Shown piece after piece: positions 2,184 through 59,320 of a stretch of 64,000 bases of DNA. The stretch is from positions 186,001-250,000 of the forward strand of contig JAFTJA010000004.1 of assembly GCA_017456605.1 (NCBI GenBank). The letters run 5' to 3'. A program made the position numbers and the translations under genes. The notes under the pieces are model-generated. The model was not told the origin of the DNA, ran no database searches, and was given only the letters and a program-made list of their open reading frames with translations. Source of the stretch: Clostridia bacterium (GTDB taxonomy: Bacteria > Bacillota > Clostridia > Monoglobales > Monoglobaceae). The stretch's first letter is position 1. Every line of letters starts with the position of its first letter.

Positions 2184-3392
2184 ATGTCATTTGATTTTCA
2201 AAAATATATAGACAGCCTGGAAGAAAAGGCCGGTAAAAATGATATTGGAAAAATGATAGCATCCGGTATAGGGGTCGGGCTCAGTCAAAATTCTTATCTT
2301 GCTGTGACAGCCTTGGAAAATGTGTATGTTGAGCTTGAAACCGTTACCAAAAATGCTGCGAAAAATGCAGAAAAGCTTGAAAAAAAGCGTCAGGAAAGAG
2401 AACTCAGTAACCTCAAAAATTCACTTAAGCTTGAACTTATCAGCGAGCAGGAGTATTATGAAAAGCTGAAAAAGTACCGGGATGAAAACCTGAGAGAGGG
2501 CACTGACAGCTGGTACAAGTACACAGAGGAAATAATAAGCTATAACAAACGGCTTATGGATGAGGCAACGAAGCAACAGCTTGAGATGGTGGAAGAGATT
2601 CATAGCCTTCAAAAAGAGCTTGAAGAAAATCTCAAAGCAGATGATGGACCGTGGTTCTCATCTCTCAAAGTTCTCCTGAAAAATGTGAATTCTGACGGAA
2701 GCAGTCAGGGCTTTGTGTGGAACAATCTCAAAGACTTTGAAAAGGAAATTGACCTTTTGCAGCGTTATAGAAATGCAATTTTAGCTCTGAAAAATCTGGG
2801 GGATATTCCCGACGGGGTGTTTTCGGATATTGCAAATATGGATGTCTCTGAGGCTATTTCGGCAGCAGGTGTAATACTTTCAGCATCCGAAGAAACAAGA
2901 AAAAAGTTTGTTGAGGGATATACAAAACGGAATTCTCTGGCGGAAAGTATTGCTGCAGAGCTCAATGGGATATTGAACAAAGAAGCACTGAGTGAAGCGG
3001 GGATTTTCAGCGTTGAAGGTTTTGACGGCGGTTACCTAAAAGTTGACGGTCAGGGTGAAAATGTATTTATAAAAACCCTGGAGGAAAATTTTGATGTTGT
3101 ACCTGAAAGCTATTATCAGCTGGGGCTGGATTCGGGCGAGGCGTTTGGCAACGGTCTTAAAACCGAGATTTCTAGCGTAATGGTTGAAATAAGGTCTTCA
3201 ATGCTTTTGCAAATGGAAGAAATCGTGCTGGATATGCAAAAAATGATGGGAGAAATATCAGGTATCTCTACGAATAGCACAACCTACAAAACCACGTATA
3301 ATTTTAATGCATCAAGGGATACCACCACACAGCAGCTGACGGCTGCCAGAAATGCCGCAGCACTTGAGCGATTGAGAGGGGGGATTGATTGA
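2184..3392 (+). CDS. Short tape measure-like tail protein
   Basis: The 402-residue protein stands in the tape measure position, between Gp15 and the distal tail protein. Residues about 45-155 are heptad-rich and rich in Lys/Glu (predicted coiled coil), residues about 325-355 form a second helical segment, and the tail is polar. Tape measure proteins set tail length and are usually well over 600 residues with membrane-active hydrophobic segments. None is visible here, so this is a short or trimmed version. AAGGAAGGA precedes the ATG. Confidence 0.7.
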   Translation: MSFDFQKYIDSLEEKAGKNDIGKMIASGIGVGLSQNSYLAVTALENVYVELETVTKNAAKNAEKLEKKRQERELSNLKNSLKLELISEQEYYEKLKKYRDENLREGTDSWYKYTEEIISYNKRLMDEATKQQLEMVEEIHSLQKELEENLKADDGPWFSSLKVLLKNVNSDGSSQGFVWNNLKDFEKEIDLLQRYRNAILALKNLGDIPDGVFSDIANMDVSEAISAAGVILSASEETRKKFVEGYTKRNSLAESIAAELNGILNKEALSEAGIFSVEGFDGGYLKVDGQGENVFIKTLEENFDVVPESYYQLGLDSGEAFGNGLKTEISSVMVEIRSSMLLQMEEIVLDMQKMMGEISGISTNSTTYKTTYNFNASRDTTTQQLTAARNAAALERLRGGID

Positions 3393-4249
3393 TGGCGATT
3401 ACACTTACATATAAAAACGAGCTTGGCGAGGTTAAAATGAAAGGTAGCGGACAAGATTCGTTCTTTAAAATAACTGCGATAGAGGGCTTGGGGCTTGTTT
3501 CGAGAGAATATAATGCTGCAGTATATTCAGGCTATGACGGACAGGAAACTTTAAGCTCAAGGGCGACGGCACGAAGTATAACTATTGCACTTGAGGCGCT
3601 GGGCAAAAATGCTGCCGAAAGTGTGCGTGATGCCCTTGGTGTATTCAGCCAAAGCGGAATGCTGTATATAAAAAGTGATAACTTAGACAGGCGCATATAT
3701 TGCAATCAGGTGCAAATCCCTGATGTAACTCGCGTGCTTCGCGGACAAATTGCAACATTTGCCGTGCAGTTTGTGTGCGACAGTCCGTTTTTTGAAGATA
3801 GCATTGATACCGTTTTGCCGCTATATAAAAGGACAAAATTGTTGGCGGTGCCTTTTTCCCTTCCCGCAAAACTTGGCGAAATTGTTCTTGGTGGGGAGAT
3901 AGAGATAAAAGGTATGGTTTCGGTTGAGCCGATAATCACAATATATTATCCCGTGGCACTTGAGGGTGCGGAAAGCATTATCCTTACCAATGAAACCACG
4001 GGAAAGTCGGTACAGCTTGACTATGCACCGAAAAATGATGATATGGTAACCATTGACATCAAAAACCGAAAGATTATCAGCAGTGTCAGTGGAAATATAA
4101 TAAACAATCTTTCAACAGACACTTTTTTGGGAGATTTTGTCCTTGTTAGAGGCGTCAACGTAATTTCGGTCAACGTGGGCGATGTGACAGCGGGCTTTAC
4201 CATTGAATGTAAACACAATAATCTCTACAGCGAGGCGGTGATAGTGTGA
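3392..4249 (+). CDS. Phage distal tail protein (Dit-like)
   Basis: The 285-residue product fits the siphovirus distal tail family (phage tail component, PF05709-like). It has an N-terminal beta-rich ring domain with GYDGQETLSSR near residue 50, a repeated Ser/Thr-rich beta core, and the QFVCDSPFFED motif near residue 130, which is characteristic of this family. Dit forms the hub joining tail tube and fibres. The ATG at 3392 overlaps the tape measure stop (TGATG), so translation is probably coupled. Confidence 0.8.
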   Translation: MAITLTYKNELGEVKMKGSGQDSFFKITAIEGLGLVSREYNAAVYSGYDGQETLSSRATARSITIALEALGKNAAESVRDALGVFSQSGMLYIKSDNLDRRIYCNQVQIPDVTRVLRGQIATFAVQFVCDSPFFEDSIDTVLPLYKRTKLLAVPFSLPAKLGEIVLGGEIEIKGMVSVEPIITIYYPVALEGAESIILTNETTGKSVQLDYAPKNDDMVTIDIKNRKIISSVSGNIINNLSTDTFLGDFVLVRGVNVISVNVGDVTAGFTIECKHNNLYSEAVIV

Positions 4250-5406
4250 CAGATGTTTTATTTTACGGCTTTGACTTTAATCTACTTGCCGATTTTCCGC
4301 GGGTTATATCTGTCAATTTTACCAGAAACTACTGTGGCTACGGCACTTCTGAACTACATTTTTCGCTGACAGAGACAGAGATAATAACCCTGCTTGAGGA
4401 AAACCCGTATATGTTCTTTACCATGGGTGAAAATTCAGCCATAGTTACCGGCTGGAAGATAGGTGAGGATATTGCGGTGTTCGGCAGAACTCCTGAATGG
4501 CTGCTTACCAAAAGAGGTGTGCAGGCATTTTCACAGACCGGAGCGACAGCAGAAGAAATTGCAAGACATGCGGTGAGTATGGCAGCAGGGGACTTTGTGG
4601 TCTTGGACAATCTTGCGGGGGTTGGGACATCGCAGAGTTATTCCATCGACAAGGTGAAAATTCTTTATGATGTTGTTTGCGAGGTTTTGGATTCTCAAAA
4701 TCTTGGTTTCAGACTGATGCCGGATATAGAGAAAAAACAGTTTTTGTTTTCGGTGTATTCGGGGAATGAATCCTTGTGCATTATTTCGCCGTCAAACAGA
4801 ACGGCTTATGATATGACCTACACCGTAGAAAAGCAGGATATGGTTACAAATTCCGGTTGGTATGAACAAAGATTTACCAATATGGGTGGATGGGATGCAT
4901 ACAACAATTCACCGTCTTTGTCAGACAATCAAGCAGCAAACGCGTATACCTTTTATGAAATAACCTCGGATACGTACTATCAAAGTGGAAGTAAATATTA
5001 TCCTGTAGAGAGGTTTGATTATGCCTGTCCTAAGGGTTCATACCTGTATTCTGATACGCCTGACGGAAAGTGGAAGGTTACCAATGTAAAGCCTGATACT
5101 GTATGGGTATATCTTGGCACTTCATCACAATCAGGTGCAAAACGCTGGGATGCCGTACTTGTTGGTACAAAGACAAGAGCTGAGGCTCTTTTAGAACTGT
5201 CAAAGCTTAAAAGAGAGCAAAGAACAGAAAGCGAAACAAAGGGAATTGAATTTGGAACAGATTATGATTTGGGTGATATTGTAAGAGTGCAGACTGAGTT
5301 TGGTGATTTTAAAAAGGCAGAGAAAAAGAGGGTGACATCGGTGGGTATTTATTTTGATATTGACAAATCCGGCGTTACCCCGATACTTAGCAGATTGGAG
5401 GAATAA
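4246..5406 (+). CDS. Siphovirus ReqiPepy6 Gp37-like tail protein
   Basis: The 386-residue protein matches the ReqiPepy6 Gp37-like family (PF14594). It has an N-terminal FDFNLLADFPRVISVNFTRNY-like opening, GWKIGEDIAVFGRTPEWLL near residue 70, and a C-terminal GIEFGTDYDLGDIVRVQ motif. The family lies at the tail tip and is thought to be part of the tail hub or fibre attachment. Translation starts at GTG 4246, overlapping the previous stop as GTGA. A 70-residue aromatic insertion (about 200-280) is the variable part. Confidence 0.8.
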   Translation: MTDVLFYGFDFNLLADFPRVISVNFTRNYCGYGTSELHFSLTETEIITLLEENPYMFFTMGENSAIVTGWKIGEDIAVFGRTPEWLLTKRGVQAFSQTGATAEEIARHAVSMAAGDFVVLDNLAGVGTSQSYSIDKVKILYDVVCEVLDSQNLGFRLMPDIEKKQFLFSVYSGNESLCIISPSNRTAYDMTYTVEKQDMVTNSGWYEQRFTNMGGWDAYNNSPSLSDNQAANAYTFYEITSDTYYQSGSKYYPVERFDYACPKGSYLYSDTPDGKWKVTNVKPDTVWVYLGTSSQSGAKRWDAVLVGTKTRAEALLELSKLKREQRTESETKGIEFGTDYDLGDIVRVQTEFGDFKKAEKKRVTSVGIYFDIDKSGVTPILSRLEE

Positions 5407-52402: not shown

Positions 52403-52431
52403 TTGACATTATAATTTAAATAATATATAAT
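52403..52431 (+). promoter_or_regulatory. Perfect SigA promoter of the OLE RNA
   Basis: TTGACA (52403-52408) and TATAAT (52426-52431) are perfect and 17 bp apart. A second TATAAT starts at 52432. Predicted transcription starts near 52438-52442, exactly where the structured RNA begins. Confidence 0.85.
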
Positions 52432-52437
52432 TATAAT

Positions 52438-53055
52438 GAGAAATTAGGGTAACGGTATTCTAGTCGATCACTTCGTTTCCCAGGGCGGGCCTAAAAATTC
52501 GCCGAAGGGCATATCGATGAAGTTCCTTGTGCGTGCTCGCGACGCCCAGTCGTGGGTGTGTGCTGGGAGTTAAGGTTTAGGGGCGATCCGCAACGGCATG
52601 TGGGCGTTGACCCCTTTTCCGTGGAGGCCTGTGACCGTGTAACGGATGGGACATCCCGCCGCTATACGTATCAGGTTAAAACCTGCGTTGCGGTACCGAT
52701 TCAGGTGCTGTGGGCAGTGTAGCCTGCCTTGAGTGGGCATGGTGGATAATTGTTCAGACCATTATCTCACGGCCATGGGATGATGTGTTATTGCTTTTTG
52801 AAACCATGTTTGCAAAAGAGGCTAAGAAACGATTGTGATTGTCGAGGAAAACTCCTAGACCGGTCTTGGACGTTTGGTCCGGTGCATATACAGGATTGTA
52901 GTGTGTACTCAGTGGCAATCAGGTAACGCCTTTTCGGTAACGATGCGTGACGGGTTTTAAAAGGGAACTTCCCTTTCGGCGACGATTGGGAAACCCGTCG
53001 GGAAAGCCAACCTGACCTATGACACAAAATTTACTGTATATGCTACCCTTTTAAT
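52438..53055 (+). ncRNA. ole: OLE RNA (ornate, large, extremophilic)
   Basis: About 615 nt without a credible ORF are much more GC-rich than the AT-rich flanks and full of stems. The ends pair: AGGGTA (52446-52451) with TACCCT (53044-53049). Clear internal hairpins are 52738-52777 (CATGG/CCATG with GATAAT/ATTATC) and 52950-52998 (ACGGGTTT/AAACCCGT, with AAAGGG/CCCTTT inside). Size, a promoter immediately upstream, and the following OapA-dxs-tlyA-recN genes match OLE RNA. OLE forms a membrane-bound complex with OapA and affects tolerance of alcohol, cold and magnesium stress in Alkalihalobacillus. Boundaries are inferred. Confidence 0.87.
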
Positions 53056-53086
53056 TTTTTAAAATAATTATGGAGATGAAGATTCT

Positions 53087-53671
53087 TTGAAAGATGATGT
53101 GCCTCGAAAGCGAAAAGTAAAGTTCAAACCCACAAAGTTCAAAAAGTCGGACAAAAGCTGGGTTATAAAAACCATTGTAATCACCTTTGTTTTGTCGGGC
53201 TTTTTCAACATTTTGTCCAGCGGCGTTATGCAAATGGTAAATATATGGCTGGCAGTTTTTATATTGCTTGTTATTGTGTTTATCGGAATATTGTTTGATA
53301 TAATCGGTATGGCGGTCACCACCGCAGATGAAGCGCCGTTTCACTCTATGGCGGCGAAACGCGTGAAATATGCTGACCGTGCCATCGCACTTATCAAATC
53401 AAAGGACAAGGTTTCAAACTTCTGCAATGATGTTATCGGTGATATTTGCGGCATTATCAGCGGCTCTGCGGCTGCTGCGGTTGTTGCATACATTATAAAT
53501 ATTTCTCAAAATCTCAGCAGTGTGCTACTTAGCCTTGTGATTACTGCGTCGGTTGCGTCACTTACTGTGGGCGGAAAGGCTGTGGGAAAGACTATTGCAA
53601 TCAAATACAGCAGTTTTATTGTTTACAACTCAGCGAGGATAATATCTGTTTTGAAATTCTGGAGCAAGTAA
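53087..53671 (+). CDS. oapA: OLE-associated membrane protein OapA
   Basis: The 194-residue protein has a basic N-terminus (1-25), four likely membrane segments (about 26-47, 52-79, 118-137 and 145-163) and a cytoplasmic loop FHSMAAKRVKYADRAIAL. D115 and D119 in CNDVIGDICGIISG form the DxxxD motif known from OapA, where mutation of both aspartates is dominant-negative. OapA anchors OLE RNA to the membrane. Translation probably starts at TTG 53087, with GGAG at 53072; a six-codon ORF (53070-53090) ends across this start. Confidence 0.9.
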   Translation: MKDDVPRKRKVKFKPTKFKKSDKSWVIKTIVITFVLSGFFNILSSGVMQMVNIWLAVFILLVIVFIGILFDIIGMAVTTADEAPFHSMAAKRVKYADRAIALIKSKDKVSNFCNDVIGDICGIISGSAAAAVVAYIINISQNLSSVLLSLVITASVASLTVGGKAVGKTIAIKYSSFIVYNSARIISVLKFWSK

Positions 53672-53686
53672 AAAAACGGTGTGCTT

Positions 53687-55552
53687 ATGAAAAAAATATT
53701 GGATGAAATCAATTCATCGGCTGATTTAAAAAAACTGAATATTCTTGAACTTGAAATTCTTGCGGATGAAATCCGTGAATTTTTGGTTGATGTTGTTTCA
53801 AAGAATGGGGGACATCTGTCCTCAAACCTTGGCACGGTAGAGCTTACGCTTGCTATGCACAAGGTTTTTGACTTTTCTTTGGATAAAATTGTCTGGGACG
53901 TGGGGCATCAGTCTTATACCCACAAAATAATAACCGGCAGAAAAGAAAGGTTTGAGAGTCTGCGTCAAAAAGGCGGTATAAGCGGCTTCCCCAAAACAGA
54001 AGAAAGCGAGACTGATGCGTTTAATACGGGACATTCTTCGACTTCGGTCTCGGCGGCTCTTGGCTTTGCAACAGCCTTTGCAATGGCAAAAAGCGATGCC
54101 CGTGCCATTGCAGTAATCGGCGATGGAGCACTCACCGGTGGCATGGCATATGAAGCCCTCAATCATGCCGGGAGCAGCTGCTTGCCGCTCATTGTGATTT
54201 TGAATGACAATGGCATGTCTATTTCTCAGAATGTAGGCGGACTTTCTCAGTATTTAAGACGCGTTACAAGTAAATCAAGATATATAAACGCTAAGGTTTC
54301 AGCGAACAGCTTTCTTAAAGGTCTTCCCGTGGTGGGCGAGCCTTTCAGAAAATTTGTGCATAAAAGCAAGAGATTTGTCAAAAAAGTGCTTTTGCAAAAG
54401 AAGCTTTTTGAAAATATGGGGCTTGAATATCTTGGCCCTGTTGACGGACACGACCTCAAAGAGCTTATCACCATTATGAATTATGCAAAAAGCCTCCAGA
54501 AACCGGTAATCATACATACGGTTACTCAAAAAGGAAAGGGCTATGCTCCGTCTGAAAATGACCCTGCGCGATTTCACGGCATCGGAAAGTTCGACCCCGA
54601 AACCGGCGAAGCTCCGTTGTGCCAAAAAGACACTTATTCCAAGGTGTTCGGCAGGGAAATAACAAGGCTTGCAAGAGATAACGAGAAGATTGTATGTATT
54701 ACTGCGGCAATGCCTGACGGCACGGGGCTTACCGATTTTTCAGAGGAATTCCCCGACAGATTTTTTGATGTAGGCATTGCAGAGGGACATGCTGTTACTT
54801 TTTCAGCGGCGTTGGCAAAGTCAGGACTTGTGCCAATTTTTGCGGTGTATTCAACATTTCTTCAAAGGGGCTATGACCAGATTATTCATGATGTTGCGTT
54901 TCAAAATCTTCATACGGTTTTTGCCATTGACAGAGCCGGAGCGACAGGAAATGACGGTGAAACCCATCAGGGGATATATGATTTTTCATATCTTTCACAT
55001 ATACCAAATATGAGAATTCTCGCTCCGTCATCGGGCGAAGAGCTTGGAGCAATGCTCAAATTCGCTGTCTGTGAATGCAGCGGTCCGGTTGCTATCCGTT
55101 ACCCAAGAGGAAGTGCCGGAATTGACAGAAAGATGTTATCCGAAATAAAGGACGGTGCGGGTATATTGGAAAGAGACGGAAGCGATGTGCTGATTGTGGC
55201 GATAGGCAGTGAGGTGGGCGAAGCGGTGATTGCTGCCGAAATTTTGGAGAAAAACGGTATTTCTGCCGCTGTTATGAATGCGAGATTTTTGAAGCCCTTT
55301 GACGAAACTCTTTTGAAAAATTTGGCAAGGGGCAAAAAACTGATTGCTACCTGCGAGGATAATGTCGCAAATGGTGGGCTTTCGGATGTTGTGAGAAAAA
55401 TTTTGGGAAGAGAAATTCTTGAAATTGCCTTTCCTGATGAACCGCTCAAGTGTGCGGGAATTGATGAGCAAAAGAGAGATGCAGCCCTTGATGGTGAGGG
55501 TATTGCAGAAAAGATAATGATGGGTCTTAGCGAAGGTGATAAAATTGAGTAA
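53687..55552 (+). CDS. dxs: 1-deoxy-D-xylulose-5-phosphate synthase
   Basis: Dxs condenses pyruvate and glyceraldehyde 3-phosphate with thiamine diphosphate, the first step of the MEP isoprenoid route. The 621-residue protein has VWDVGHQSYTHKI, the cofactor motif GDGALTGGMAYEALNHAG, ILNDNGMSISQN, the transketolase-type GIAEGHAVTFSA and RAGATGNDGETHQG. The ATG at 53687 is preferred to GTG 53681. It is 15 bp after oapA, so the OLE transcript probably reads into it. Confidence 0.96.
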   Translation: MKKILDEINSSADLKKLNILELEILADEIREFLVDVVSKNGGHLSSNLGTVELTLAMHKVFDFSLDKIVWDVGHQSYTHKIITGRKERFESLRQKGGISGFPKTEESETDAFNTGHSSTSVSAALGFATAFAMAKSDARAIAVIGDGALTGGMAYEALNHAGSSCLPLIVILNDNGMSISQNVGGLSQYLRRVTSKSRYINAKVSANSFLKGLPVVGEPFRKFVHKSKRFVKKVLLQKKLFENMGLEYLGPVDGHDLKELITIMNYAKSLQKPVIIHTVTQKGKGYAPSENDPARFHGIGKFDPETGEAPLCQKDTYSKVFGREITRLARDNEKIVCITAAMPDGTGLTDFSEEFPDRFFDVGIAEGHAVTFSAALAKSGLVPIFAVYSTFLQRGYDQIIHDVAFQNLHTVFAIDRAGATGNDGETHQGIYDFSYLSHIPNMRILAPSSGEELGAMLKFAVCECSGPVAIRYPRGSAGIDRKMLSEIKDGAGILERDGSDVLIVAIGSEVGEAVIAAEILEKNGISAAVMNARFLKPFDETLLKNLARGKKLIATCEDNVANGGLSDVVRKILGREILEIAFPDEPLKCAGIDEQKRDAALDGEGIAEKIMMGLSEGDKIE

Positions 55553-56336
55553 GGAACGGCTTGACGTATATATGGTGGAACAGGGTATGGCGCCCAGCCG
55601 GAGCGCAGCGCAGGCCATGATTATGGCGGGCGATGTGTATATTGACAACCAAAAGGCTATGAAGGCGGGCGAAACCATAAAAGGCACCGAAAAAATTGAA
55701 ATCCGCAGCAAGGGTCCAAACTTTGTAAGCCGCGGCGGGCTCAAGCTTGACAAGGCGATGAAGGTTTTCCCTATCACTCTCTCGGATAGCGTGTGTATGG
55801 ACATTGGTGCATCAACCGGAGGTTTTACTGACTGTATGCTTCAAAGCGGGGCAAAAAAAGTGTATTCGGTGGATGTAGGTTATGGTCAGCTGGCGTGGAA
55901 GCTCAGACAGGACGCGCGAGTTGTCAATATGGAACGGACCAATATCCGGTATATTGACAAAGAACTTATTGAAGAACCGTTGGACTTCTTTTCGGTGGAC
56001 GTTTCGTTTATATCATTAAAACCGGTTTTGCCGGTGGCGTTTGACCTTTTGAAAGACGGCGGATGCGGCGTTTGTCTTATAAAACCTCAGTTTGAAGCGG
56101 GCCGCGAAAAGGTGGGCAAAAAAGGTGTAGTCAGGGAAAAGTCAACTCACATCGAGGTGATTGAAAAGGTTCTTGGCTTCACGAAAGAAATCGGCTTTTC
56201 GGTGAAAGGTCTTGATTTTTCACCCATAAAAGGTCCTGAGGGAAATATTGAATACCTTATGTATATTAAAAAAACAGTGGATGAGAGCGAAAGCTTTGAT
56301 ATAGAGGCACTTGTTGAAAGGTCACACAATCTTTAA
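55545..56336 (+). CDS. tlyA: TlyA/YqxC-family rRNA methyltransferase
   Basis: The 263-residue protein has an N-terminal S4 RNA-binding domain (1-60, RLDVYMVEQGMAPSRSAA) and a C-terminal RrmJ-like methyltransferase domain with DIGASTGGFTD (about 85-95). TlyA 2'-O-methylates ribose in 16S and 23S rRNA; whether this one does is inferred. I chose TTG 55545, since AAGGTGA is 6 nt upstream and the family begins at this point; the start overlaps dxs. Confidence 0.92.
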   Translation: MSKERLDVYMVEQGMAPSRSAAQAMIMAGDVYIDNQKAMKAGETIKGTEKIEIRSKGPNFVSRGGLKLDKAMKVFPITLSDSVCMDIGASTGGFTDCMLQSGAKKVYSVDVGYGQLAWKLRQDARVVNMERTNIRYIDKELIEEPLDFFSVDVSFISLKPVLPVAFDLLKDGGCGVCLIKPQFEAGREKVGKKGVVREKSTHIEVIEKVLGFTKEIGFSVKGLDFSPIKGPEGNIEYLMYIKKTVDESESFDIEALVERSHNL

Positions 56337-56354: not shown

Positions 56355-57206
56355 ATGAAGAATATTGCACTTTTTGTCAACAGGGACAGAGATACTCACC
56401 TTGTGACAACAAAAGAGGTAATTTCACTCCTGAAAAAATATAATAAGAATATTGTTCTTGATGAATCACTCAAAGCTCATGTGTGTGCAGAAGATGGTGT
56501 GACATTTGTTTGTGGCGATGAAATGTTTGAGAAATGTGATTTGGTGATTGCCCTTGGCGGTGACGGCACGATACTGAAGATTGTCAATCAGGCGGCGGAA
56601 TATAATGTCCCCATTGCCGGAATAAACCTCGGACATCTGGGCTTTTTGACCCAAGCGGAAAAAGATGACCTTTCAAACTTAGTGAAAATTCTTGAGGGCG
56701 AATTTTCTGTTGAACACAGAATGATGCTTGATGCAAGAGTGAAAAAGGGCAAGGAGGTTTTGGAAACTTTCAGCGCTCTCAATGATATAATTATCCGTGG
56801 CGACCAGGCAAAGATGATTTCCCTCACGGCAGAAGTCAACAAAACAGAGGCAAGCCGTTATCTCGCTGATGGAATCATTATTGCCACATCAACAGGCTCG
56901 ACGGCATATTCGCTGTCTTGCGGAGGCCCTATTGTGCACAAGGGTCTTGACTGTATGATTATGACGCCCATTTGTCCCCACACTATGAAATCCAGATGTA
57001 TAGTAATCCCGCCAGAGTTCAGCGTTGCGGTTCGCTTTGATGCATCTTATTGCAGCGAGGTTGACCTCAAGGTTGACGGGATTTCTGCAAAGCATCTTGG
57101 AAAAGATGAATACATAGAGGTGGTGCGCAGCGAAAAGCGTGTTCCGCTGGTGAATGTAAATTCAAGAGGCTATTTTGACGTAATAAGTCAAAAGCTTTCG
57201 GATTAG
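56355..57206 (+). CDS. nadK: NAD kinase
   Basis: NadK phosphorylates NAD to NADP. The 283-residue protein has the GGDGT motif (IALGGDGTILKIVN, about 68-79), NLGHLGFLTQ, ADGIIIATSTGSTAYSLSCGGP and the C-terminal VDGISAKHLGKDEY. GGAGGGATG precedes the ATG. It sits between tlyA and recN; in Clostridia argR usually follows nadK, but here it is missing. Confidence 0.96.
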   Translation: MKNIALFVNRDRDTHLVTTKEVISLLKKYNKNIVLDESLKAHVCAEDGVTFVCGDEMFEKCDLVIALGGDGTILKIVNQAAEYNVPIAGINLGHLGFLTQAEKDDLSNLVKILEGEFSVEHRMMLDARVKKGKEVLETFSALNDIIIRGDQAKMISLTAEVNKTEASRYLADGIIIATSTGSTAYSLSCGGPIVHKGLDCMIMTPICPHTMKSRCIVIPPEFSVAVRFDASYCSEVDLKVDGISAKHLGKDEYIEVVRSEKRVPLVNVNSRGYFDVISQKLSD

Positions 57207-57233: not shown

Positions 57234-58937
57234 ATGCTTAAAGAATTACATATAAAGAATATTGCTGTTATTGATGAAGTGCATATTGAATTTTCTCCCG
57301 GCTTTAACGTTCTTACGGGTGAAACAGGAGCAGGCAAGTCAATCCTTATAGATTCAATCGGTATGGCACTTGGCAGACGGACAAGCCACGATTTGTTGCG
57401 CACAGGATGCGATGCGGCTGTGGTAAGTGCCTGCTTTTTTGTGTCCGATAATGAAGTTCTTGAAAAAATATCTAATATGGGCATTGATTGTGACGATGGT
57501 ATGGTGCTGATAAACCGCAGACTCACCGATGACGGAAAGTCTGTTTGCCGCATAAACGGCGTCACTATGCCTCAGGGCGTTGTCCGTGAAATTTCAGCTA
57601 TGCTGGTTGACATACACGGACAAAGTGACAACCATTCGTTGCTTGACGAAAAAAAGCATCTTGGGCTCTTGGATGAATTCGGGAACATAAGAGACGCCTT
57701 AGAAGATTATAAGAAAATTTACAGAAAAATGAAAGAGCTCTCAAAGGAAAGAGACAGCCTTTCTGCGTCAAGGGATGAAAAAACCCACAGAATGGAGCTA
57801 CTCAGTTTTCAGATTGATGAGATAGATGCGGCAAAGCTGAAACCAGGGGAGGACCAAAGCCTTGAAGAACGCCGCGAATATCTTTACAATATGGAAAGCA
57901 TAACAAAAGGTGCAGGGATGGCATACGGCGCCCTTTACGGCGGTGAAGAGGCTTCTGCCTATGACCTTTTGAAACAGGCGCAAAAGAGCATTTTGGACAT
58001 AAGCCGCTTTTTGCCAAAACTGGAAGAATGCAGCGCTCGGCTTGACGGCATTATCGCAGATGCCGAGGACATTGCGTCTGAAATAAATGCATATGTCGTG
58101 GGTACAGAATTTAGTATGGCGGAGCTTGACTTTATTGAAGAACGCCTTGATACCATAAACAATTTAAAACGCAAGTACGGAAGTTCTATTGAGGCTATTT
58201 TGGAATATGGCGAAAAGGCACGAATAGAGGCTGAGTCTCTTGAAAAAAGTGACGAGCGACTGTTAGAAATTGAAACTGAACTCTCTGAAGTAGAGGGAGA
58301 ACTGAAAATAGCGGCAGAAAACCTTACAACTTTGCGGCTTAGCTCTGCCGTAGAGCTTGAAAGGCAGATAATGAACGAGCTTTTTGAGCTTGATATGCCA
58401 AAGGTCAGGTTTGCTATTGAAATTGTGGACAGGAAAGATGGAGAGGACATTTCTTATTCAGAAAGCGGCAAAGACAAGGTTCGGTTTTTGTTCTCCACCA
58501 ATCCAGGCGAGGATTTAAAGCCAATGTCAAAGATTGCATCGGGCGGTGAGCTTTCAAGAATTATGCTTGCGGTCAAATCGGTGCTTTCGGACACTGGGAC
58601 TCAGGACACTATGATTTTTGACGAAATTGACACCGGCGTCAGCGGAAGAGCGGCACAGAAGATTGCTGAAAAGTTATCCGCTTTGGCAGAAAAGAAGCAG
58701 GTATTTTCCATTACGCATCTGGCACAGATTGCAAGTATGGCGGATAGCCATTTTCTTATACAGAAAAATTCCACCGACAGCAGTACTCAAACAGAGGTTA
58801 TATGTCTTGACGAAGAGGGAAGAACGGACGAGCTTGCCCGCATAATCGGCGGCGTATCTGTTACCGACCTTACACGCAGAAGCGCTCTTGAAATGCTTGA
58901 TATGGCAAAAAAGAAAAAGGAAAATCAGAATATATGA
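57234..58937 (+). CDS. recN: DNA repair protein RecN
   Basis: RecN is an SMC-like ATPase that acts early in double-strand break repair. The 567-residue protein has Walker A TGETGAGKSILIDS near residue 28, coiled-coil arms (about 150-360), and the C-terminal ASGGELSRIMLA signature with MIFDEIDTGVSGRAA. GAAAGGCTG precedes the ATG. It overlaps the RseC-like gene by ATGA. Confidence 0.96.
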   Translation: MLKELHIKNIAVIDEVHIEFSPGFNVLTGETGAGKSILIDSIGMALGRRTSHDLLRTGCDAAVVSACFFVSDNEVLEKISNMGIDCDDGMVLINRRLTDDGKSVCRINGVTMPQGVVREISAMLVDIHGQSDNHSLLDEKKHLGLLDEFGNIRDALEDYKKIYRKMKELSKERDSLSASRDEKTHRMELLSFQIDEIDAAKLKPGEDQSLEERREYLYNMESITKGAGMAYGALYGGEEASAYDLLKQAQKSILDISRFLPKLEECSARLDGIIADAEDIASEINAYVVGTEFSMAELDFIEERLDTINNLKRKYGSSIEAILEYGEKARIEAESLEKSDERLLEIETELSEVEGELKIAAENLTTLRLSSAVELERQIMNELFELDMPKVRFAIEIVDRKDGEDISYSESGKDKVRFLFSTNPGEDLKPMSKIASGGELSRIMLAVKSVLSDTGTQDTMIFDEIDTGVSGRAAQKIAEKLSALAEKKQVFSITHLAQIASMADSHFLIQKNSTDSSTQTEVICLDEEGRTDELARIIGGVSVTDLTRRSALEMLDMAKKKKENQNI

Positions 58938-59320
58938 AAAAATTCGGTACAGTAACAAAAACAGAGGGTGACAAAGCGGTTGTCACGATTATACGCGATT
59001 CGGCATGCGGCGAAAATTGTGCGGCATGCGGTATCTGCAAAAACAGCAAGGAAATGACCATAATTATACCAAACGAGGGCTTTAATGTTGGAGACAAGGT
59101 GTGCCTTACCACCGACGACAAGACTTTTTTGAAATCTTCGGCCCTTGGGTACCTTTCACTTACGGCACTTTTGATTGCGGGCGGCGCAATAGGCGGAAAG
59201 TTGGGCGGCGACTGGACGGCATTTCTTGGTGCGCTAATAGGGGTTCTTTTGGGAGTTGTTCTTATCAGGTGTTTTTTTGCCGAGAAAATTGAAATTAAGA
59301 CAGAAAAAGTTGAGAGGTAG
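58934..59320 (+). CDS. RseC/SoxR-reducing system-like membrane protein
   Basis: The 128-residue protein has an N-terminal domain with four cysteines in the pattern CGENCAACGIC (about 25-35), followed by two membrane helices (about 70-90 and 95-113). This is the RseC/MucC layout, linked to electron transfer to an Rnf-type complex and to redox-sensor reduction. The cysteines could bind an iron-sulfur cluster. It starts inside recN (ATGA). Function here is inferred from the family. Confidence 0.8.
   Translation: MKKFGTVTKTEGDKAVVTIIRDSACGENCAACGICKNSKEMTIIIPNEGFNVGDKVCLTTDDKTFLKSSALGYLSLTALLIAGGAIGGKLGGDWTAFLGALIGVLLGVVLIRCFFAEKIEIKTEKVER

Follow-up and report, generated by a model that had tools for sequence, protein, structure and literature searches.

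The OLE RNA, a large non-coding RNA of bacteria, acts together with the membrane protein OapA. To our knowledge, no biochemical function of the class has been established after about twenty years. The published OLE particle is a membrane-bound ribonucleoprotein (RNP) containing OapA and a dimeric RNA core, and it helps the cell to withstand stress from Mg2+, ethanol, cold, and carbon sources (PMC12265935, PMC12286853, PMC9723947, PMC12054373). A GTDB-wide census recorded 2,822 OLE genomes in Bacillota, including gut clades, and an anticorrelation between OLE and the magnesium transporter MpfA has already been published (PMC11332333).

The OLE RNA gene and its promoter

The window, a stretch of 64,000 nucleotides from a Clostridia bacterium, was scanned in full with Rfam. 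The OLE family (RF01071) matched positions 52431–53065 of the + strand with 478.5 bits against a cut-off of 50 (E 2.5e-137), covering positions 1–616 of the 616-position model, and no other family exceeded its gathering score anywhere in the 64-kb window. This search had been set beforehand as the check on the initial annotation, which had placed an OLE RNA at 52438–53055; the identity was borne out over the full length and the coordinates were correct to about ten bases. The stretch was also structured and ORF-free, as had been claimed. Its MFE was −239.9 kcal/mol, compared with −204.7 ± 8.4 kcal/mol in 20 shuffles (z −4.2), and the program-made ORF list contained no sense-strand ORF of at least 60 aa within it, the sole entry being a 79-aa antisense frame with a TTG start (52788–53027). 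The locus is, with virtual certainty, a genuine, full-length OLE RNA gene. The RNA itself was expected and is one more representative of an established class. The features of the locus were as follows.

52403–52431, + strand: sigma-A type promoter, TTGACA-N17-TATAAT, matching the consensus at 12 of 12 positions
52431–53065, + strand: OLE RNA gene, as the extent of the Rfam match (RF01071, 159 model pairs); the RNA is probably about 52438–53055
52446–52451, + strand: 5' arm of P1, AGGGTA, pairing with 53044–53049; pairing kept and sequence changed in relatives
52484–52503, + strand: hairpin with an A-rich loop (CCUAAAAA), presumed P4; model helix 98% paired
52507–52522, + strand: presumed J4a/5 strand (GGGCAUAUCGAUGAAG), k-turn and OapC-site region; conserved in the alignment of 21 OLEs
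52771–52774, + strand: palindromic GGCC of the P9 kissing loop; palindrome in 21 of 21 aligned OLEs
52968–52992, + strand: 3'-domain hairpin with a GGCGAC loop, presumed P13 and OapB site; helix 20 of the covariation analysis
53044–53049, + strand: 3' arm of P1, TACCCT, pairing with 52446–52451; unpaired in the Rfam model
53087–53671, + strand: oapA, a 194-aa membrane protein with DVIGD (DxxxD); follows OLE, assigned with the motif and an AlphaFold model
53681–55552, + strand: dxs, isoprenoid synthesis (TIGR00204 equivalog, 737.8 bits)
55536–56336, + strand: tlyA (TIGR00478, 257 bits)
56355–57206, + strand: nadK (NAD kinase Pfam domains)
57234–58937, + strand: recN (TIGR00634, 534.7 bits)

The promoter was composed of a TTGACA box (52403–52408), a 17-nt spacer, and a TATAAT box (52426–52431), in agreement with the consensus SigA promoter first proposed. 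A promoter with 12 of 12 matches was also located upstream of OLE in five relatives (L004, L005, L006, L038, and L035) and one with 9 of 12 at the corresponding place in L008, while no good match was found at that place in G028. The position of the boxes fits an RNA start near 52438, and this strong housekeeping-type promoter would give an OLE RNA of roughly 615 nt.

A second OLE copy in the assembly (G000:C20:300-934) was considered as a paralogue and rejected. It is a redundant strain contig, because over 2434 bases it aligned collinearly with the window at 99.9% identity, and the bin therefore contains two strain variants of the OLE locus. This contig (G000:C20:1-5067, L003) carried C for T at window position 52622, inside OLE.

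Fold and conserved elements of the RNA

The secondary structure of the window OLE is backed by covariation in its relatives. In an alignment of 21 OLEs, with the 159 pairs of the model projected from the window row, 87.4% of the cells over these pairs were paired. Double changes, in which both sides of a pair differed, occurred in 105 of the 159 pairs, a number reached by none of 500 shuffles. Covariation was 0.495, compared with 0.200 in shuffles and 0.11–0.13 with slid partners; the projection from one row somewhat favours the unslid version, and the double changes are independent of it.

The two ends of the RNA had been reported to pair as AGGGTA/TACCCT, and this pairing proved real, since the relatives kept the helix with different pairs. 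At the equivalent place, GACGGC/GCCGTC was found in L022 and GAGGTGGTG/CACCACCTC in Haloimpatiens. The support for P1 comes from these relatives because the helix is weak in single sequences, the best end helix in the window sequence alone being only marginally above shuffles (~6%). The P1 positions are unpaired in the Rfam model, and the support is therefore independent of the model.

The elements known from the OLE particle were located along the window RNA. The presumed P4 hairpin corresponds to the helix responsible for dimer contact B1 of the known OLE structure (PMC12286853), and the presumed J4a/5 strand to the k-turn and OapC-site region (PMC9723947, PMC12286853). The P9 tetranucleotide, which was GGCC in 19 and AGCU in 2 of the aligned OLEs and palindromic in every case, would make dimer contact B3, and its palindrome is required by the published dimer model (PMC12286853). 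The hairpin at 52968–52992 is presumed to be P13 with the OapB site by analogy with the published assignment (PMC9723947). The CCUCCU anti-Shine-Dalgarno mimic, found at the bS21 site of the H. halodurans OLE, was not present in P6 of the window RNA.

Three other readings of the stretch were weighed. The first, that a long structured 5' leader regulates oapA-dxs expression here and no separate RNA is made, draws on the position of the OLE gene in line with oapA-dxs and on the intrinsic terminator that was looked for and not found between OLE and oapA. However, the stretch matched a class that accumulates as a separate RNA of ~630 nt in H. halodurans (PMC9723947), its two ends pair with each other, and its conserved features correspond to the dimer and protein sites of OLE and not to a switch beside the ribosome-binding site, so that a mere leader is very unlikely. 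Still less probable is a decayed OLE pseudogene that is out of use. Among the strongly conserved consensus positions, 226 of 249 were kept in the window RNA and 23 differed, but most of these differences were common to the genus and several were compensatory, as in P1; the match was full-length, promoter and oapA were intact, and OLE was shared by 8 of the 9 genomes in the genus. Another large RNA class (e.g., raiA/ModT, GOLLD, or ROOL), to which size and stem density alone would point, is refuted by RF01071 being the sole family above its gathering score. An ole-oapA locus making an OLE RNA of the published kind is the best overall explanation, and we hold it with high confidence.

OapA and the other partner proteins

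Downstream, the gene context was as initially annotated, with oapA, dxs, tlyA, nadK, and recN, and an MFS gene lay upstream. Between recN and the ABC-F gene, an RseC/MucC-family protein was encoded (window 58934–59320; Pfam, 72.6 bits), and its position was kept in relatives.

The identification of the gene after OLE as oapA, with a CNNM-like fold, is supported by sequence, motif, and predicted fold. Residues D115, G118, and D119 of the DxxxD motif, which has been named as the hallmark of OapA (PMC11332333), were invariant in 21 sequences. With its 194 aa, DxxxD, and co-occurrence with OLE, the product fits the description of OapA as a membrane protein of about 21 kDa. The protein had no family in Pfam or NCBIfam and no solved homologue by sequence, and its match to the CNNM profile was weak (23 bits). 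The six best PDB matches of the AlphaFold model, which was of medium confidence (pLDDT 74, pTM 0.61), were all CNNM/CorB/CorC transporter domains, with E values of at least 0.036 and probabilities of 0.72–1.00. Orthologues of oapA followed OLE in nearly all relatives' loci checked; in L007, OLE was cut by the contig end.

The exception was an uncultured Bacilli MAG (Lapin-026__bin71; L016, ~3200–4552), where an OapA relative with DVIGD was preceded by an apparent glycosyltransferase gene in place of OLE, and no Rfam OLE match was obtained upstream of it at E 1. OLE is encoded at another place in that genome, or else oapA occurs there without it, which would break the published OLE–OapA pairing.

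The three other published partners were also encoded in the window genome. The OapB homologue was located between map and infA (L040, 13429–13707) and matched PDB 7k9b, 'OLE-associated protein B', with E 5.1e-13. The OapC/YbxF homologue was located just upstream of rpsL (L041, 9957–10202) and matched the YbxF-like 3v7e with E 6.7e-10. The bS21 gene (G000:C1:255537-255701) shared its contig with OLE and lay about 16 kb further downstream. KOW profile matches in the genome were rejected as OapB, being L24 and NusG by size, and OapB was identified by position. The window OLE is thus full-length, and the genome encodes every one of the four published partners. OapB and OapC were also present in most OLE-less members of the family, and their presence alone is therefore no proof of action on OLE here.

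By analogy with published work on Halalkalibacterium and with the Clostridium cryo-EM structures, the window RNA would dimerise. From published work, it would bind OapA at the membrane, with OapB, OapC, and bS21 as further protein partners, and the resulting particle would act in the stress response, linked to the handling of divalent metal (Mg2+). That the locus gives a working RNP of the published kind is quite probable.

OLE and MpfA in the host family

The host had been described as a spore-forming, possibly gut-associated Clostridium relative in which OLE is little studied. The gut association is supported through relatives, as the nearest OapA matches of recorded origin were MAGs from the colon of ruminants (sheep, goat, and water deer). 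Spore formation is plausible from the Spo0A present in the genome, although Spo0A is no proof of sporulation. 'Clostridium relative' is loose, as the named relatives that matched best were MAGs carrying the label Clostridia or Oscillospiraceae rather than Clostridium. 'Little studied' is only partly right, as the GTDB-wide census already covers gut clades.

OLE was detected in 10 of 38 genomes of the family, namely in 8 of 9 in the genus of the window (g1) and in 2 of 2 in genus g5. In the CNNM search of the 38 genomes, a weak OapA-type match was obtained in each of the 10 genomes with OLE but in none of the 28 without it, whereas at least one MpfA-type match above the cut-off was obtained in 27 of the 28 and in none of the 10. 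The remaining OLE-less genome, G001 (79% complete), gave no MpfA-type match. A third CNNM match in the window genome (G000, C11:6602-6943, 18.7 bits) was rejected as MpfA, being a YqhQ/DUF1385-like protein by eye. The exclusion of OLE and MpfA had a Fisher p of 2e-8, uncorrected for kinship, with the tree pointing to a small number of independent events. This pattern agrees with the published anticorrelation (PMC11332333), and its strictness supports the metal-handling part of the explanation. An overlap in function between the OLE particle and MpfA is fairly probable. The OLE genomes were also smaller, with a median completeness-corrected size of 1.66 compared with 2.28 Mb (p 0.004), a difference confounded by kinship. 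The genus g8 genomes G031 and G032 gave no dxs match at 1e-60, which is explained either by incomplete assemblies or by an alternative route to isoprenoids.

The one OLE-less genome of genus g1, G029, was grouped with the OLE carriers G024, G025, and G028 inside the genus in the dxs and tlyA tree (support 90). Its dxs-tlyA-nadK-recN-RseC-ABCF genes were in the order of the window, but argH lay directly before dxs. The block argH-argG-ruvC-ruvA-ruvB-metG-DUF1015-MFS was inverted relative to the window (G029:C32:1-18000; L075, L121), and ole-oapA was missing at the inversion breakpoint beside dxs. Both new junctions were within one contig, with argH beside dxs at one and, at the other, MFS beside a hairpin and a small ORF that is unrelated; no match to OLE appeared at either, even with the threshold at E 10. 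The genome kept oapB and oapC, in line with roles of these proteins outside OLE.

The G029 mpfA gene (L076, 5945–7264; G029:C52) encoded 439 aa with a CNNM match and reads as the full CNNM-CBS-CorC type, the later domains being judged by eye. It adjoined ntpD and a tRNA-Lys(CUU) gene. In four OLE-carrying congeners, ntpD and tRNA-Lys were present without mpfA, and in six in all, ntpD was without mpfA in the stretch read; the tRNA gene may therefore be an insertion site. The mpfA contig, of 146 kb, belongs to genus g1, because its ntpB, beside mpfA, was 87–88% identical to that of the congeners. The mpfA sequence was 76–77% identical to mpfA of genus g8 and 31–41% identical to the others sampled, which suggests, without proving, a horizontal gain.

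The incompleteness of MAGs is the main caveat on the comparative results. The members of genus g1 are all draft MAGs (68–89% complete) and the inversion break adjoins the very site in question, so that the OLE-less G029 and the OLE/MpfA split might be artefacts of incomplete or contaminated assemblies. Such an origin is unlikely: both junctions were continuous in one contig with other sequence in place of OLE, the contig with mpfA carried the ntpB of the genus, and OLE missed in 28 genomes with MpfA in 27 of them is unlike random gaps. We lean slightly towards the OLE–OapA particle and MpfA being interchangeable occupants of one role in the family, with G029 as a natural replacement in which mpfA was gained beside tRNA-Lys, ole-oapA was lost at the inversion breakpoint, and oapB and oapC were kept.

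The OLE class gains one more well-supported member, and the present lineage a full-length OLE accompanied by the genes of all four partners. The comparative part carries the novelty, as an exclusion of OLE and MpfA within a family with one well-resolved replacement. It is more useful than the new RNA, since it gives a species-level loss of ole-oapA where mpfA is present, with synteny and phylogeny. Such a loss is what one would predict if the RNA particle performs the task of a protein magnesium transporter, and with a close pair of lineages named, species-level replacement becomes testable.

Compared with the OLE class (RF01071), the window RNA shared the full match to 616 positions, the conserved nucleotides, the covarying helices, P1, the P9 palindrome, the adjoining oapA, and the dxs-tlyA-nadK-recN neighbours. 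It differed in its lineage-specific P1 (GGGTA/TACCC), in AC[G/A] replacing GCA in the strand that follows P1, in a P6 lacking CCUCCU, and in a host near gut Clostridia instead of an extremophile. Compared with MpfA and the other CNNM-CBS-CorC magnesium transporters, OapA shared a CNNM-like fold, whereas it was without the CBS and CorC domains and carried DxxxD; we know of no RNA partner of MpfA. In OLE variants 1 (TANB77) and 2 (RF39), P7–P9 are shortened or P7 and P8 missing, and OapB and OapC are mostly absent (PMC11332333). The window genome resembled those of these variants in its small size (1.41 Mb assembled at 85% completeness) and in its close relatives from gut metagenomes. The window RNA belongs to neither variant, as its match extends over the full model and takes in the regions that variant 1 has shortened or variant 2 lacks, and both OapB and OapC are encoded in its genome.
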